Shown here: one piece after another, positions 26,051-42,742 of the stretch
How positions within the stretch are numbered: position 1 is the stretch's first letter
Layout of the letters: every line of letters begins with the position of its first letter
Origin: Sulfuricurvum sp.
Lineage (GTDB): Bacteria > Campylobacterota > Campylobacteria > Campylobacterales > Sulfurimonadaceae
Reading direction: 5' to 3'
DNA length: 64,000 bases
Assembly: GCA_020721585.1 (NCBI GenBank)
Contig: DYMK01000003.1
Location: forward strand, 62,001 to 126,000
Program-made: the position numbers and the translations under genes
The notes under the pieces: model-generated
Seen by the model: only the letters and a program-made list of their open reading frames with translations
Databases searched by the model: none
What the model was told of the DNA's origin: nothing

Positions 26051-27088
26051 ATGAAATTAGCAATTGTATTTGGAGGGGCAAGCTACGAGCATGAGATTAG
26101 TATTGTCAGTGCCATTACGGTTAAAGAAAAACTAGTCGGCTTTGATCTGAGTTTTATTTTTTGTGATCAAGATCACCGTTTTTACTTCGTCGATGGATCA
26201 AAGATGAAAGCGGTCACTTTTTCACGGGGTGAACACCGTAAAATGCCCCAACTCACTTTGGTAAAAGGGGGATTTGAACAACGGGGGATGTTGGGAAGCA
26301 AGCTCCACACGATGCCCATTTTGAACCTCATTCATGGGGGCGATGGGGAAGATGGCACCCTTGCAAGCCTCTTGGATTTTTACGGTATCCCCTTCATTGG
26401 GCCGCGTAAAGAAGCGGCGATGTTGAGTTTTGATAAACATTACACCAAATGGTTCGCCCAGTCAGTGGGGGTTAAAACGCTCCCTTTTGAGGTCATTACC
26501 CCCAAAACCCGTCATACGATTACGACGGACTACCCTTTTATCGTGAAACCTGCCCGTTTGGGAAGCTCCATTGGGGTGAGTATCGTCCGTGATGCCACAG
26601 AATTGGACTATGCGTTGGATGTGGCGTTTGAGTTTGACAGCGTACTTTTAATCGAGCCGTTTATCTCGGGGGTCAAAGAGTACAATTTAGCGGGTTTTGG
26701 TGTCCGTGGCGCGATCACTTACTCCATTGTCGAAGAACCACACAAAGTGGAATTTTTGGATTTTGAGAAAAAATACCTCGATTTTTCCCGCTCCAGTACC
26801 GTGACCCATGCCTCCATCTCCCCTGAATTGGTCACGCAGCTGCAAAGTGCTTTTAGTACGTTGTATACTCCCCTTTTTGAGGGGGCATTGATCCGTTGTG
26901 ACTTTTTTGAAATCGAAGGAGAGGTCTATCTCAATGAGATTAACCCCATCCCCGGATCGATGGCAAACTACCTTTTTGAAGATTTTAGAGGGGCGATTCA
27001 CCAATTGCTCGCCTCCTTGCCGATGAAAAAAGCAATCACCATTACCTATGACTACATCCACTCCATTTCGCAAGCCAAAGGGAAATAG
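26051..27088 (+). CDS. ddl: D-alanine--D-alanine ligase
   Basis: A 345-residue ATP-grasp ligase that makes D-Ala-D-Ala for peptidoglycan. Key segments are VFGGASYEHEISIVSA, LIHGGDGEDGTLASLLDFYGIPFIG, the lysine-containing IVKPARLGSSIGVSIV, and the metal-binding end VYLNEINPIPGSMANYLF. Length is at the long end, as expected for Campylobacterota. It is 2 nt from the following hydrolase gene, the order known from H. pylori, where murF comes next. Confidence 0.96.
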   Translation: MKLAIVFGGASYEHEISIVSAITVKEKLVGFDLSFIFCDQDHRFYFVDGSKMKAVTFSRGEHRKMPQLTLVKGGFEQRGMLGSKLHTMPILNLIHGGDGEDGTLASLLDFYGIPFIGPRKEAAMLSFDKHYTKWFAQSVGVKTLPFEVITPKTRHTITTDYPFIVKPARLGSSIGVSIVRDATELDYALDVAFEFDSVLLIEPFISGVKEYNLAGFGVRGAITYSIVEEPHKVEFLDFEKKYLDFSRSSTVTHASISPELVTQLQSAFSTLYTPLFEGALIRCDFFEIEGEVYLNEINPIPGSMANYLFEDFRGAIHQLLASLPMKKAITITYDYIHSISQAKGK

Positions 27089-27090
27089 TC

Positions 27091-27831
27091 GTGGCGATCA
27101 AATCGTTTTTTTATCACGGTAATGCCCTATCGCTTAGTTACGAGATACTCAATCCCAGTGGTACCACCGACATCCTTTTTCTCCATGGATGGGGATCCTC
27201 TAAGGCATTGATGAAACAAGCGTTTGGCAAAACGCTCCCCACGTTTCGCCATATTTATGTCGATTTACCGGGATTTGGGGGGAGTTCACCCCTTGATGGG
27301 TTGACCACAACCGATTATGCCGCGATTATGGGGCAATTGATGGAGGAATTGGGACTCCAAAAAACGGTTATTGTGGGACACTCTTTTGGGGGAAAAGTAG
27401 CGACGTTGCTTGATCCCCACTTGCTTGTACTGGTCGCTTCAGCGGGTATTTTAGTCCCAAAACCTTTCAAAATCCGTGCCAAAATAGCCCTCTTTAAACT
27501 CCTTAAAATCACAAAACTAACCTCCTTGCGCCGTTTCTTCGTCGCTCCCGATGCGCAGGGGATGAGTGAGGGGATGTACCAAACGTTCAAAAATGTGGTC
27601 AATGAAGATTTTAGCGCGACGTTTGGAGCCTTTACCCATCGTGCGTTGCTCTGTTTTGGGGATACCGATACCGCCACGCCTTTATGGGCAGGGGAAAAAA
27701 TAGCGCAGTTGATCAAAAATTCTCGCTTGGTGGCATACCATGGCGATCACTATTTTCTCTTTAAATCGGGTGCGTCGATTGCCGTAGAGATTGAAAAAGA
27801 GGTAGAGACCGTTGTCTCTAAAAATCCGTAA
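27091..27831 (+). CDS. Alpha/beta-fold hydrolase with repeat-derived C-terminus
   Basis: A 246-residue hydrolase starting at GTG. The oxyanion segment is FLHGWGSSKALMKQAFG, and the nucleophile elbow is VIVGHSFGGKVATLL with the serine in GHSFGG. The final His is probably in YHGDHYFLF and the acid in CFGDTDTATPLW. The substrate is unknown; the homologue in the same place in H. pylori is also poorly characterised. The last codons (KNP and stop) lie inside a 129-bp direct repeat, and the same three residues end the two cassette proteins, so this C-terminus appears to have been rewritten by an insertion. The murF gene usual at this point is absent. Confidence 0.85.
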   Translation: MAIKSFFYHGNALSLSYEILNPSGTTDILFLHGWGSSKALMKQAFGKTLPTFRHIYVDLPGFGGSSPLDGLTTTDYAAIMGQLMEELGLQKTVIVGHSFGGKVATLLDPHLLVLVASAGILVPKPFKIRAKIALFKLLKITKLTSLRRFFVAPDAQGMSEGMYQTFKNVVNEDFSATFGAFTHRALLCFGDTDTATPLWAGEKIAQLIKNSRLVAYHGDHYFLFKSGASIAVEIEKEVETVVSKNP

Positions 27832-27948
27832 TCTCTCGTCATTGCGGACACCTCTCGTCATTCCCGCGAAGGCGGGAATCCAGCTAGACTCCCGCCTTCG
27901 CGGGAGTGACGAAACCCCCTCCCCCTGAACTCGATTCAGGGTCTAAAA
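27820..27948 (+). repeat. 129-bp direct repeat, left copy
   Basis: Nearly identical to 28550-28678, with about four mismatches, beginning at AAAAATCCGTAATCTCTCGT and ending at CAGGGTCTAAAA. It contains the dRS3-like double hairpin (27854-27915) and a CCCTGAACTCGATTCAGGG hairpin. The two copies enclose the small cassette gene, giving a 730-bp repeat-to-repeat period. Confidence 0.9.
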
Positions 27949-27997
27949 AAATACGCTAAAATACGGTTATGATTTTTCCTACTGCAAGGAGACCCCA

Positions 27998-28561
27998 ATG
28001 ACTGATCAAGAACTCAAAGACCTTGTCGCAAGTTTAGCGATTTCACAAGCCAAAACCGATGAGCAGCTCAAAGAACTTAAAGCCTCCAATCAACGTATGG
28101 AAATGCTGTTAGAAAATATTGCTAACAATCAAGGCGATATTACCGAAGAATTTTTTTACAATGCCAACGACCAAGGCGATGTCGCTGAAGAGTTTTTTTA
28201 CAATTCTCTCGAAAATAAAATGAATTTAGGGGGAATCCATTACGACTTTATTGATCAAAATTGGAAAAGAAGCAATAAAGCATTATGCGATGAATTTGAT
28301 ATTATCATGGTCAATGGCAAAGATATTGCGATTATCGAAGTAAAATACAAAGCGCATGAAAAAGATTTAGAAAAGCTTTTGACCAAAAAACAAGAAAATT
28401 TTAAAGAATTGTTTCCTATTTATAAAGATTACAATCATCATCTTGCCTTAGCTTCGTTTTATATGCCTCCAGAACTCAAAGAAAAAGCGTTGGAAAATAA
28501 CGTCATTGTTCTTCAACGTAAAGGGGATGTGATGGAGACGTTTCTCCCGAAAAATCCGTAA
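27998..28561 (+). CDS. PD-(D/E)XK-like cassette protein (DUF3782-type), copy 1
   Basis: A 187-residue protein. The N-terminus (MTDQELKDLVASLAISQAKT) is a predicted coiled coil, then comes a short tandem duplication of NQGDxxEEFFYN, then a nuclease-like core. EFDIIMVNGKDIAIIEVKYK has the spaced Asp and ExK of the PD-(D/E)XK superfamily. A paralogue at 42035-42661 shares almost all of the C-terminal 130 residues. Both have GGAGACCCC before the ATG and the same 3' flank, so the mobile unit includes promoter, gene and tail. Catalysis is not shown; the fold is also common in restriction and repair proteins. A direct repeat encloses the gene. Confidence 0.75.
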   Translation: MTDQELKDLVASLAISQAKTDEQLKELKASNQRMEMLLENIANNQGDITEEFFYNANDQGDVAEEFFYNSLENKMNLGGIHYDFIDQNWKRSNKALCDEFDIIMVNGKDIAIIEVKYKAHEKDLEKLLTKKQENFKELFPIYKDYNHHLALASFYMPPELKEKALENNVIVLQRKGDVMETFLPKNP

Positions 28562-28678
28562 TCTCTCGTCATTGCGTATACCTCTCGTCATTCCCGCGAA
28601 GGCGGGAATCCAGCTAGACTCCCGTCTTCGCGGGAGTGACGAAACCCCCTCCCCCTGAACTCGATTCAGGGTCTAAAA
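28550..28678 (+). repeat. 129-bp direct repeat, right copy
   Basis: Second copy of the repeat at 27820-27948. It starts within the last codons of the cassette gene, so the KNP-stop ending belongs to both the repeat and the gene. Differences to the left copy include GCGTATA for GCGGACA and CGTC for CGCC in the second hairpin. Confidence 0.9.
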
Positions 28679-28685
28679 GAAGAGA

Positions 28686-28759
28686 TGCTGAATCAAGTTC
28701 AGCATGACCGAGATCGTCACCCTGTACGTCTAACCGTCACCCTGAGCTTGACTCAGGGT
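28686..28759 (+). repeat. Palindromic repeats upstream of the leucine-rich-repeat gene
   Basis: Two hairpins: TGCTGAATCAAGTTCAGCA at 28686-28704 and the ACCCTGAG...CAGGGT palindrome at 28739-28759. The same pair, in the same order, lies just after the gene at 30206-30259, so the gene is bracketed by direct copies. Confidence 0.85.
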
Positions 28760-28786
28760 CTAAAACCACCCCAAAAAGGAAATCGT

Positions 28787-30196
28787 GTGTACCGTCCAGA
28801 AGCCCTCAAAACCATTGCTATCATTGAAGAAAAATATAAGATTGACTGGAACAACGACGCGCAACGTCAACAACTTACTGAATTGAATTTAATAAGCAAC
28901 CAAATCACCGACCTCTCCCCCCTTGCTCAGCTTACGCAACTGACCGAATTGAATTTATGGAACAACCAAATCACCGACCTCTCTCCCCTTGCTCAGCTTA
29001 CGCAACTGACCGAATTGAATTTAGGGCGTAACCAAATTACCGACCTCTCTCCTCTTGCTCAGTTGACGCAACTCACCGAATTGAATTTATGGAAGAACCA
29101 AATCACCGACATCTCCCCCCTTGCTCAACTGACGCAACTCACCAAATTGAATTTACAGAAGAACCACATCACCGACATCTCCCCCCTTGCTCATCTGACG
29201 CAACTGACCACCTTGGATTTAGAGAAAAACAAAATCACCCATATCCCTGAATGGTTGCTTGCTCTTAATTTAAAGATTACCCTCGAAAATATGGGGGAAA
29301 GTCTTGAAAAACCTATTTTATTCGCAGGCAATAACAGCAACAGCGTTATGATCAATGCGGGTAATCATAACGCTATAAACAGTGTAAACTGCAATAATAT
29401 TACGTTACTAAAGAAAGAACTAGATAATTTATTTATGGGAAAAATGATATTTAATACTCCTAAAGAGATGTGTTCTAATGAGAGTAAAGAAGTAATATTA
29501 CGCATTTCTAAAAATGAAATTGATACAGATGACTTAGCCAAAGACAATAAAACAATCAAAGAAGATATTAAAATATCACCTTATATGAAAGCAGTACTAA
29601 AGAGTGGAGATTTTGATGTTATTTCTCTTAACAGCGAAGAGCAAATTATTGATGATACCACAGTGACCGAATGGCAATGGAGTATTACTCCTAAAAAAAG
29701 TAAAGAAGAAGGTCAAGTTTATTTGACCATTACTGTGCGAATACCATTAAAACATAAAGAAGAGTATAAAGATATACCTACTTTTAAAAGAACGATCAAA
29801 ATACTTTTAAAGGACTCTGATATGCAATCAAAAAAAGATGAAGGAGGTAACAGCACTGTGTTTAATATAAGTTTAACGGGAAATGGTGATATAAACATTA
29901 ATGATGGTGAGAACAGCACCATCACCCAAACCATCACCACCACCAACAATGACCTCAAAGCCCTCTTAGAATTAGTTAAAAAAGAGGCGAATACCATCGC
30001 CGATCAGTTACCCAACGACAAAAAAGATACTTTTACAAAACTTACCAATCAAATCATCAAGGATGCTGATGAAGGTAAAAAAAGTCCCTTTTTTGAGTTT
30101 AGTACCAATGGCGTGTTAGAAACTGCTAAGACGGTAGGTGAAGTTGGTGTCACGTTTATGGAATTGATTCCAAAAATTGTGGAATTTTTGGGCTAA
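28787..30196 (+). CDS. Leucine-rich-repeat protein with unassigned C-terminal domain
   Basis: A 469-residue protein with no signal peptide. I start it at the GTG at 28787, which follows AAAAAGGA; an earlier ATG would translate palindromic repeat DNA. After a short leader, six 22-residue leucine-rich repeats (LTELNLxxNQITDLSPLAQL type, residues about 27-165) form an internalin-like solenoid. The long C-terminal part is polar, with Asn-rich segments such as NNSNSVMINAGNHNAINSVN and NISLTGNGDININDG, then a helical end. Similar Asn/Gly-rich stretches occur in bacterial conflict proteins, but I cannot assign a family. The protein is probably cytosolic and may act by protein binding. Confidence 0.7.
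   Translation: MYRPEALKTIAIIEEKYKIDWNNDAQRQQLTELNLISNQITDLSPLAQLTQLTELNLWNNQITDLSPLAQLTQLTELNLGRNQITDLSPLAQLTQLTELNLWKNQITDISPLAQLTQLTKLNLQKNHITDISPLAHLTQLTTLDLEKNKITHIPEWLLALNLKITLENMGESLEKPILFAGNNSNSVMINAGNHNAINSVNCNNITLLKKELDNLFMGKMIFNTPKEMCSNESKEVILRISKNEIDTDDLAKDNKTIKEDIKISPYMKAVLKSGDFDVISLNSEEQIIDDTTVTEWQWSITPKKSKEEGQVYLTITVRIPLKHKEEYKDIPTFKRTIKILLKDSDMQSKKDEGGNSTVFNISLTGNGDININDGENSTITQTITTTNNDLKALLELVKKEANTIADQLPNDKKDTFTKLTNQIIKDADEGKKSPFFEFSTNGVLETAKTVGEVGVTFMELIPKIVEFLG
28872..29230 (+). repeat. Tandem 66-bp coding repeats (LRR array)
   Basis: About five copies of a 66-bp unit containing ACCGAATTGAATTTA and ATCACCGAC(C/A)TCTC are nearly identical at the DNA level. The first copies are most alike and the last two drift, which suggests recent unit gain by slippage or unequal recombination. 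Confidence 0.85.
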
Positions 30197-30205
30197 AAGA
30201 GGAGA

Positions 30206-30259
30206 TGCTGAATCAAGTTCAGCATGAGGGGGTTTGTCACCCTGAGCTTGACTCAGGGT
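30206..30259 (+). repeat. Palindromic repeats downstream of the leucine-rich-repeat gene
   Basis: TGCTGAATCAAGTTCAGCA (30206-30224) and the ACCCTGAG...CAGGGT hairpin (30239-30259) repeat those before the gene. They lie between convergent genes, so they may also act as a two-way terminator, although there is no long T run. Confidence 0.8.
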
Positions 30260-30265
30260 TTTAAC

Positions 30266-40907: not shown

Positions 40908-41815
40908 TGATTGCCATTGATTTGGGCTCCAATACCCTACGAATGGTGGAGTATGATGGGAAAACATGGGGCAAAACGTTTGAAAAAATCGTCCGCACTG
41001 CCCAAGGGTTGGATCACACAAGACGCATTGACCCACGCGCTATCGAACGGATTGTCTTAGCCATTGAAGAGGCAAAAACGCTCCTTGATTTTGAGGGGCA
41101 AACCATCGTCGCTGTGACCACCGCCGCGATGCGTATGGCAACCAACTCCCACGAGGTACGAGAAGTATTTTTCCAACGAACGGGGATCAATTTTAGAGTG
41201 ATTAGTGGGGAAGAGGAGGCACAACTCACCCTTATGGCGGTACAAAATCGTCTCAACGCCCTTGGGATCACGTCGCCCTCATGGGCATTGGTCGATATTG
41301 GAGGCGGTTCGACTGAGATTATTGTGGTCACTGGGGAAAAAATCGATGCCAAAAGTCTCCCTTTTGGGATTGTGACCATGAGCGAAAGCGGTGATAGTAA
41401 AGGGCGTTTGACCCTCTTTAGGGAGGCACTTTTGGAAGCACTCCCAGAAAATATCCCCAAAACGTTAGTCCTCACCGCAGGCACCCCCACGACCATGGCA
41501 GCCTATTTACACGGAATGACCTACGCAACGTATGACCCACACCGTATCAATGGAACGACGTTAAAAGCCTCGGATTGTGGAGAAATTTTAGACGCGTTAC
41601 GCGCTATGGACGAATCCACACGCGCCACATACGTAGGGGTGGGGAGAGAACAGCTTATCATTACAGGCATAGCGATGGTCGAATCTGTTTTTCATGCCCT
41701 TGGGTGCGATGAAGCAGTCGTTGTCGATGATGGGTTACGTGAGGGGGTCGCCCTTAACCATGTAAAACTAGCCTTGTCTCGCTCCCAAGCTCCAGCTTGG
41801 GAGTGTATAGGTTAG
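40907..41815 (+). CDS. Ppx/GppA-family phosphatase with displaced C-terminus
   Basis: A 302-residue ASKHA-fold exopolyphosphatase/pppGpp phosphatase. The phosphate loops are IAIDLGSNTLRMVEYDG and ALVDIGGGSTEIIVV. The last normal residues are VVVDDGLREGVALNH. Beyond this the frame runs into repeat DNA and ends LALSRSQAPAWECIG. The 44-bp end of the normal frame is repeated at 42699-42742, where it continues LNHFRNG and stop, the likely original C-terminus. The core is intact, so activity may survive, but the final residues are foreign. Confidence 0.85.
   Translation: MIAIDLGSNTLRMVEYDGKTWGKTFEKIVRTAQGLDHTRRIDPRAIERIVLAIEEAKTLLDFEGQTIVAVTTAAMRMATNSHEVREVFFQRTGINFRVISGEEEAQLTLMAVQNRLNALGITSPSWALVDIGGGSTEIIVVTGEKIDAKSLPFGIVTMSESGDSKGRLTLFREALLEALPENIPKTLVLTAGTPTTMAAYLHGMTYATYDPHRINGTTLKASDCGEILDALRAMDESTRATYVGVGREQLIITGIAMVESVFHALGCDEAVVVDDGLREGVALNHVKLALSRSQAPAWECIG
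41714..41757 (+). repeat. 44-bp direct repeat from gppA, left copy
   Basis: Identical over 44 bp to 42699-42742, and to 48 bp if one mismatch is allowed. Both begin GCAGTCGTTGTCGATGATGG. This copy is inside gppA; the other restores the gppA frame to a natural stop. The pair marks both ends of an insertion of about 985 bp. Confidence 0.92.
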
Positions 41816-41904
41816 TTTGCATTCCCAACAAGAACGATAGAAGAGCTGGATTCCCGCCTTCGCGAGAATGACGAGATTTTGTCACCCTGAACGTGTTTCA
41901 GGGT
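41782..41904 (+). repeat. Cluster of three palindromic repeats
   Basis: CTCCCAAGCTCCAGCTTGGG (41782-41801, pairing continues to 41803), a half-copy of the dRS3-like element around 41844-41876 (ATTCCCGCCTTCGCGAGAAT), and ACCCTGAACGTGTTTCAGGG starting at 41884. Three different repeat families stacked in 120 bp at the left end of the cassette. Confidence 0.8.
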
Positions 41905-42034
41905 CTAAGATTATGGCGGTGAACAATCTCAATGTTGGGGTGTTCTTTGATGGAACGGGTAAATTACGCTTGCAACATACCCGGTGTATACTTTATGATA
42001 AAATATCCTTACTATTTCCCCCAAGGAGACCCCA

Positions 42035-42661
42035 ATGACCGATCAAGAGCTCAAAGACCTTGTCGCAAGTTTAGCGATTTCGCAAGCCAAAACAGATGCT
42101 CAGATGAGAGAGACCGATGCGCAGATGAAAGCATTGCGAGAATCGCAAGCCAAAACGGATGCTCAAATGCAAAAAACCGATGAACAGATGAAAAAAACCG
42201 ATGAACGTTTTGAAGACCTCAGAGCATCCAACAAGCGTATGGGAATACTCTTAGGAAACATTTCCAACAACCAAGGCGATGTCGCCGAAGAGTTTTTTTA
42301 TAATTCATTGGAAGATAAAAAAGATTTAGCAGGGATTCATTACGACTTTATCGATAAAAACTGGAAAAGCAGTACCAAAAATTTGCGTGATGAATTTGAT
42401 ATAGTGATGGTCAATGGCAAAGATATTGCGATTATCGAAGTAAAATACAAAGCGCATGAAAAAGATTTAGAAAAACTTTTGACCAAAAAACAAGAAAATT
42501 TTAGAGAACTGTTTCCCATCTATAAAGACTATACGCATCATTTGGCACTTGCTTCCTTTTATATGCCTCCAGAGCTAAAAGAAAAAGCATTGGAAAATAA
42601 TGTCATTGTCTTACAGCGCAAAGGGGATGTGATGGAGACGTTTATCCCTAAAAATCCGTAA
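42035..42661 (+). CDS. PD-(D/E)XK-like cassette protein (DUF3782-type), copy 2
   Basis: A 208-residue paralogue of the protein at 27998-28561. The N-terminal coiled coil is longer, built from repeats of QAKTDAQMRETDAQMK, while the C-terminal 130 residues are nearly the same, including EFDIVMVNGKDIAIIEVKYK with the Asp and ExK spacing. Both end PKNP and share AAGGAGACCCC before the start and the same 3' flank. The N-terminal repeat number differs between copies, pointing to slippage. It sits inside the gppA insertion. Function unknown; nuclease fold inferred. Confidence 0.75.
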   Translation: MTDQELKDLVASLAISQAKTDAQMRETDAQMKALRESQAKTDAQMQKTDEQMKKTDERFEDLRASNKRMGILLGNISNNQGDVAEEFFYNSLEDKKDLAGIHYDFIDKNWKSSTKNLRDEFDIVMVNGKDIAIIEVKYKAHEKDLEKLLTKKQENFRELFPIYKDYTHHLALASFYMPPELKEKALENNVIVLQRKGDVMETFIPKNP

Positions 42662-42698
42662 TCTCTCGTCATTGCGTATACCTCTCGTCATTCCCGCG

Positions 42699-42742
42699 GC
42701 AGTCGTTGTCGATGATGGGTTACGTGAGGGGGTCGCCCTTAA
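42699..42742 (+). repeat. 44-bp direct repeat from gppA, right copy
   Basis: Second copy of 41714-41757. It continues in the gppA frame as NHFRNG and a TAA at about 42759, so it preserves the original 3' end of gppA. Confidence 0.92.

Follow-up and report, generated by a model that had tools for sequence, protein, structure and literature searches.

Little is understood about the small nuclease genes whose copies multiply in genomes in the absence of a transposase; the well-studied case is that of Rpn (recombination-promoting nuclease, YhgA-like, PF04754/COG5464). Rpn proteins act in phage defence (PMC10327210, PMC5350276), and the authors of the Rpn work found no evidence of autonomous transposition for rpn genes (PMC10327210). 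The DUF1626 proteins often lack the motif-III lysine (PMC1913061). For the CGTC-tagged REPs, a further element of relevance here, no dedicated transposase was reported by Di Nocera et al. (PMC3733652). The locus to be compared with these systems lies in a 64-kb stretch of Sulfuricurvum DNA (the window), where a predicted nuclease gene stands between two direct repeats made up largely of such palindromes, and where the neighbouring hydrolase gene ends in the same codons as the nuclease gene.

Gene order and the direct repeats

The genes around the locus are ddl (26051-27088), an alpha/beta hydrolase gene (27091-27831, 246 aa, Abhydrolase_1 at E 1e-16), the PD-(D/E)XK gene (27998-28561), a leucine-rich-repeat (LRR) gene that starts at 28685 or 28788 and ends at 30196 and, beyond it on the opposite strand, a GGDEF-type gene; ddl and the GGDEF-type gene owe their names to a reading of the translations. 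The features located below by window coordinates are on the + strand unless otherwise indicated. An Rfam scan and a tRNA scan of the 64-kb window gave no match.

The 129-bp direct repeats (27820-27948 and 28550-28678) are spaced 730 bp apart. They are real, as the first-pass annotation had said, and they differ at three positions (27847, 27849 and 27895) rather than at about four; a wider ungapped repeat of 147 bp, with 94% identity, extends over 27805-27951 and 28535-28681. The left copy contains the last three codons and the stop of the nuclease gene, the tail TCTCTCGTCATTGCGGACACCTC, paired REP-A hairpins and REP-B, and the right copy is the nuclease gene's own tail with its REPs. The repeat opens with the codons AAA AAT CCG TAA, then TCTCTCGTCATTGCG, continues with two head-to-head palindromes, GTCATTCCCGCGAAGGCGGGAATCCAG and its partner, and closes with a REP-B that ends in GGGTCTAAAA, where the nuclease-gene leader begins. 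The pair of CGTC-tagged REP-A palindromes (27855-27912, not assigned to a strand) is a head-to-head, BIME-like arrangement, and the stretch 27850-27951 folds at z = -10. REP-B (CTCCCCCTGAACTCGATTCAGGGTCTA, 27919-27945) is one of 78 matches in the genome at three or fewer mismatches. The leader, a promoter-RBS region at 27952-27997 (AATACGCTAAAATACGG...AAGGAGACCCCA), is common to other nuclease copies.

Generic CGTC-tagged REP palindromes thus account for about 95 of the 129 bp. Both repeats carry TCGTCATTCCCGCGAAGGCGGGAATCCAG, a short palindrome with an unpaired CGTC at one end; there are 83 matches to REP-A in the genome, here paired in opposite orientation, and the palindrome core is matched seven times in the window, against none expected in shuffles. 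The palindrome string itself had no match in a literature search, and the REPs in the repeat are not new in themselves. They are strongly associated with the nuclease genes: a REP lies within 120 bp downstream of eight of ten nuclease copies, as compared with 21 of 190 other ORFs (p 3e-6). The genome has two Y1_Tnp genes, one of them, on contig C22, with a REP-A about 1.4 kb away, but RAYT-type Y1 transposases were rejected as the movers, since neither gene has an adjoining A- or B-type REP.

The LRR gene has a listed start that falls inside the repeats, with an alternative GTG near 28788. It lies (28670-30265) between direct copies of a REP-C + REP-B block, one at 28670-28765 and a similar one after the gene at 30190-30265, and resembles a second REP-bounded accessory gene. 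Within the genus, the site 3' of the hydrolase serves as an accessory hotspot: in three relatives (L028:2255-2927, L032:2268-2824 and L024:2244-3433) the hydrolase is followed by what the translations suggest are nucleotidyltransferase-HEPN-like, RelBE-like and anti-sigma/STAS-like pairs. Most other relatives have a murF-like gene directly 3' of the hydrolase. Here murF is found on contig C17, after an ftsZ-like gene, and the searched REP core sequences were absent from the fetched 4.4 kb; REP-mediated translocation as the reason that murF no longer follows the hydrolase is unsupported.

Origin of the hydrolase C-terminus

The left repeat gives the hydrolase its K-N-P-stop in frame, and identity falls off upstream of 27820 (14 mismatches in the preceding 30 nt), which places the junction at or just before that position. 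On the + strand of the window there are exactly three occurrences of AAAAATCCGTAA (27820, 28550 and 42650), one for the hydrolase and one for each of two nuclease genes. The genome has six matches to a 24-nt motif that runs from the last codons into the tail, five of them at the ends of nuclease genes and the sixth at the hydrolase; a reversed-pattern control had none. Since the motif is otherwise confined to nuclease-gene ends, the hydrolase end evidently derives from a nuclease-gene tail. Among hydrolase orthologues from other genomes of the genus, none of 29 has the KNP end or the tail, and none is immediately followed by a matching REP; the orthologues end variously (EIEKSL, EIEKNLRGN, ...LKSLEH). 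The opposite direction of transfer, with the ending native to the hydrolase and copied from there into the nuclease genes, was rejected because these 29 orthologues are without it. What the hydrolase gained is limited to three residues, at a C-terminus that is variable among relatives in any case.

The first-pass annotation had proposed that the final codons of the hydrolase come from the left copy and that both cassette proteins share this ending, and it was right on both points. It had also named relatives lacking any cassette but having the same hydrolase end and repeat as the finding that would count against its proposal; they were looked for, and the 29 orthologues include no such case. 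Its word "cassette" must not be taken to mean an integron cassette, whose attC site is recombined by an IntI tyrosine integrase.

The enclosed gene and its family

The gene between the repeats encodes a protein of 187 aa with an N-terminal coiled coil and belongs to a multi-copy family. Across 46 homologues E64, D101 and K116 do not vary, and E114 is nearly invariant. Profile matches of the protein are weak and scattered; the predicted structure (pLDDT 87.6) has weak fold matches to R.BspD6I2, XisH and the Can2/Card1 nucleases. Judged by sequence and structural model, the product is PD-(D/E)XK-like, which agrees with the first reading. The N-terminal coiled coil differs between copies by whole heptads: in each of the eight complete copies from this genome, the number of residues up to the conserved NNQG is divisible by 7. 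The dN/dS values among the seven clade copies (0.03-0.17) indicate that the protein is under purifying selection. A 42-bp tandem duplication at 28120-28203, seen in this copy only, doubles the motif-I region (NNQGDITEEFFYNA / NDQGDVAEEFFYNS) in frame by 14 residues, and may alter or disable the predicted enzyme.

The family has about 12 loci in this genome, several of them at contig ends. The seven complete own copies just mentioned form one clade (100/98), while the C90 copy groups with Gammaproteobacteria and another Sulfuricurvum and is a separate acquisition. Within the genus, 3 of 41 genomes have the gene, and within the class 7 of 298; the family occurs in several phyla, with members in Campylobacterota, Gammaproteobacteria, Bacteroidota, Fibrobacterota and others, and no member was found in the plasmid or phage records searched. 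The family is patchy in distribution, multi-copy and spread horizontally.

Some of its members are arrayed. A Sulfurospirillum locus (L073) has seven nuclease genes in tandem, separated by 54-bp spacers that are mutually identical, with ordinary tandem-duplication ends and no extra tail; an integron-like n+1 repeat array was rejected as a description of it, there being six full spacers for seven genes. Around a constant core, the genes of the array at L073:1021-5226 mix two alternative EEFF-to-DEYD segments and differ in their number of heptads. Clusters of two or three copies on one locus are found at L101, L078, L084, L063 and L124, and the tail-gene-tail layout of the window is found also at L090, L091 and L083. 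Flanking direct repeats accompany 11 of 49 homologues, compared with 7 of 83 control ORFs, and four of those controls belong to the L073 array; such repeats are common in the family but not universal. A tail-only match on C22 was considered as a solo tail and rejected, as it is a contig end.

A second insertion and the ends of the copies

The window holds a second copy of the nuclease gene (42035-42661, 208 aa), which ends in KNP-stop as well and has the same tail for 37 nt. Its insertion site is the 3' end of a ppx/gppA-like gene, and an exact 44-bp duplication flanks the insert: the left copy (41714-41757) is the 3' coding end of that gene, and the right copy (42699-42742) precedes the native gene end (ALNHFRNG-stop) and the downstream DNA. 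The insert between them (41758-42698) is composed of REP-D, REP-A, REP-B, the leader, the nuclease gene and a tail cut at the REP-A loop, and a palindromic repeat (VKLALSRSQAPAWECIG) now encodes the last residues of the ppx/gppA-like gene product.

What the nuclease copies have in common begins about 12 to 80 bp before the start codon and extends from 1 to more than 100 bp past the stop. They end at different points, and the ends are therefore ragged, not fixed at one recombination point. A transposase profile was sought in the nuclease gene and none was found, which, with the varying ends, leaves it outside the insertion sequences and composite transposons. Host DNA is duplicated or carried along in several cases. 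In genomes G060 and G032 the insert carries the beginning of a priA-like gene or has it duplicated on either side, and in G032 (L135:2000-2800) the tail after the nuclease gene holds the first priA-like bases, with the real start several hundred bases downstream. In the genome under study (G000), the copy on C30 (717-989) carries as its 3' flank about 130 bp that are the first part of the gene adjoining the copy on C22 (158473-158708). The copies at 28.0 and 42.0 kb of the window are identical for 37 nt after the stop, yet the genes themselves differ at dS 0.83, so that an exchange of tails does take place among the copies. A stretch of 80 nt is identical at 79 positions between 27998-28600 and 42035-42700, and gene conversion among dispersed copies is the likely cause.

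How the locus arose

In our judgement the locus is probably what is left of a tandem unit, bounded by tails and belonging to an Rpn-like mobile nuclease family, from which one gene body has gone. The first-pass annotation had left two routes by which the hydrolase was fused, duplication of the unit or recombination at its tail. One of them did take place, and the data do not themselves choose between duplication with loss of one gene body and insertion of a unit into an older tail; we favour duplication followed by loss because tandem multiplication is documented in the family. Recombination between near-identical repeats would have duplicated the 730-bp tail-bounded unit (leader, gene, tail and REPs) beside the hydrolase; the loss of one gene body would then have left the hydrolase frame running into the final codons of the copy that disappeared, and the order hydrolase-tail-[gene-tail] would be what remained. 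The two 129-bp tails differ by 2.3%, whereas the enclosed gene differs from its clade paralogues at dS 0.65-1.0, which argues that the left tail was copied locally and recently and is not a second independent insertion, although gene conversion could mimic its young age. The order of events is our inference from a draft assembly, as are the repair-based copying and a defence-like role for the family. Like an Rpn-type mobile nuclease, the family spreads between unrelated bacteria, forms tandem arrays and multiplies within a genome with no recognisable transposase and no fixed ends. The nuclease may aid its own copying, with the breaks that it makes leading to repair that pulls in the gene and some flanking DNA.

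The one gene with two tails is also exactly the product expected if a nuclease unit, possibly circular, had recombined by homology into a solo tail that already lay beside the hydrolase, duplicating that tail. This would fit nearly as well as duplication and loss, the same layout recurs at the three other loci named above, and the exchange of tails between the 28.0-kb and 42.0-kb copies speaks for it too. It requires, however, that an insertion and a loss had first produced the solo tail, neither a circular form nor a site-specific recombinase was found, and what is seen for the family in the L073 array is plain tandem duplication; we regard it as possible but rather unlikely. The driver of the recombination is another matter, and pure REP-mediated shuffling, in which palindromes recombine, the genes between them are moved passively and the nuclease has no part, is compatible with the duplication and the insertion readings alike. 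The REPs adjoining most nuclease copies, their large share of the 129 bp and the bracketing of the neighbouring LRR gene by REP-C/REP-B copies would all be accounted for in this way. Against it, homologues in the REP-A-poor genomes G060 and G032 and in other phyla also lie between direct repeats or in arrays, the tail sequence copied to the hydrolase includes a part outside the REPs, and it is the nuclease family that is present some twelve times; we rate this possibility about as low as the insertion.

The strong local association with CGTC REPs, together with their want of a reported transposase, might suggest that the nuclease is the missing enzyme that mobilises them. REP-A abundance is independent of the gene, with 97, 61 and 51 matches in G024, G007 and G015, which lack it, and only 2 and 1 in G060 and G032, which have it, and a role as dedicated mobiliser was rejected as extremely improbable. 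An artefact of short-read assembly in a repeat-rich genome, affecting the repeat or the junction, is only marginally more credible, even with 112 contigs and four nuclease copies cut by contig ends: the repeat copies differ at three positions and have distinct flanks, the contig is 174 kb long, and a clean duplication of its own marks the second insertion at a distance of 14 kb.

The hydrolase fusion is a trace of the copying and loss of this nuclease family in genomes, and an example of housekeeping proteins having their ends remodelled by such genes. The junctions are readable (tail copies, the 44-bp target duplication, carried flanks), so that the copying reaction could be deduced from them. 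A broader proposal, which we put forward tentatively and think more doubtful than any of the routes weighed above for the locus except the mobiliser and the artefact, is that the family constitutes a second, Rpn-like class of mobile PD-(D/E)XK nucleases, with a subunit recognition code set by heptad length, self-copying without a transposase by repair of the breaks that the nuclease provokes, host DNA dragged along or duplicated, and occasional new C-termini for neighbours (hydrolase, ppx).

Comparison with known systems

Card1/Can2 and the UPF0102 (YraN) nucleases are among the best distant profile and fold matches of the nuclease core, but the family has only that core in common with them and is without the CARF sensor domain. 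DUF1626/PDDEXK_10 (PF07788, COG5493) has the same order of a coiled-coil N-terminus followed by a PD-(D/E)XK domain (PMC1913061); the motif-III lysine, in contrast, is invariant in the family described here. DUF3782 (PF12644) and PDDEXK_10 match 4 and 6 of the 46 homologues, respectively, at E < 0.01, with the window protein and most relatives below a profile match at that threshold. The palindromes of the repeat have the properties of the CGTC-tagged REPs (Di Nocera 2013, PMC3733652), whose hairpins begin with CGTC and which are high in copy number, paired in opposite orientation and mostly downstream of genes, with the difference that here they belong to the tail carried by a single gene family.

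The closest resemblance is to Rpn, with which the family shares the PD-(D/E)XK fold and catalytic core, the patchy horizontal spread, several copies per genome, tandem arrays, variable ends and in-frame variation of repeat number in a helical oligomerisation region (PMC10327210, PMC5350276). PF04754 is absent from the Pfam matches of the window protein and from the 25 families listed, out of 29 in all, for the 46 homologues. Rpn has a variable C-terminal antitoxin (RpnS) that is translated separately, whereas the length variation of this family lies in the N-terminal coiled coil. The Rpn repeats are C-terminal and of four residues, whereas those of this family are N-terminal heptads, and the target and flank duplications seen here differ from the Rpn case, for which the Rpn paper reports no target-site duplications. 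Rpn is the nearest functional model for a family that, by profile, is not Rpn.
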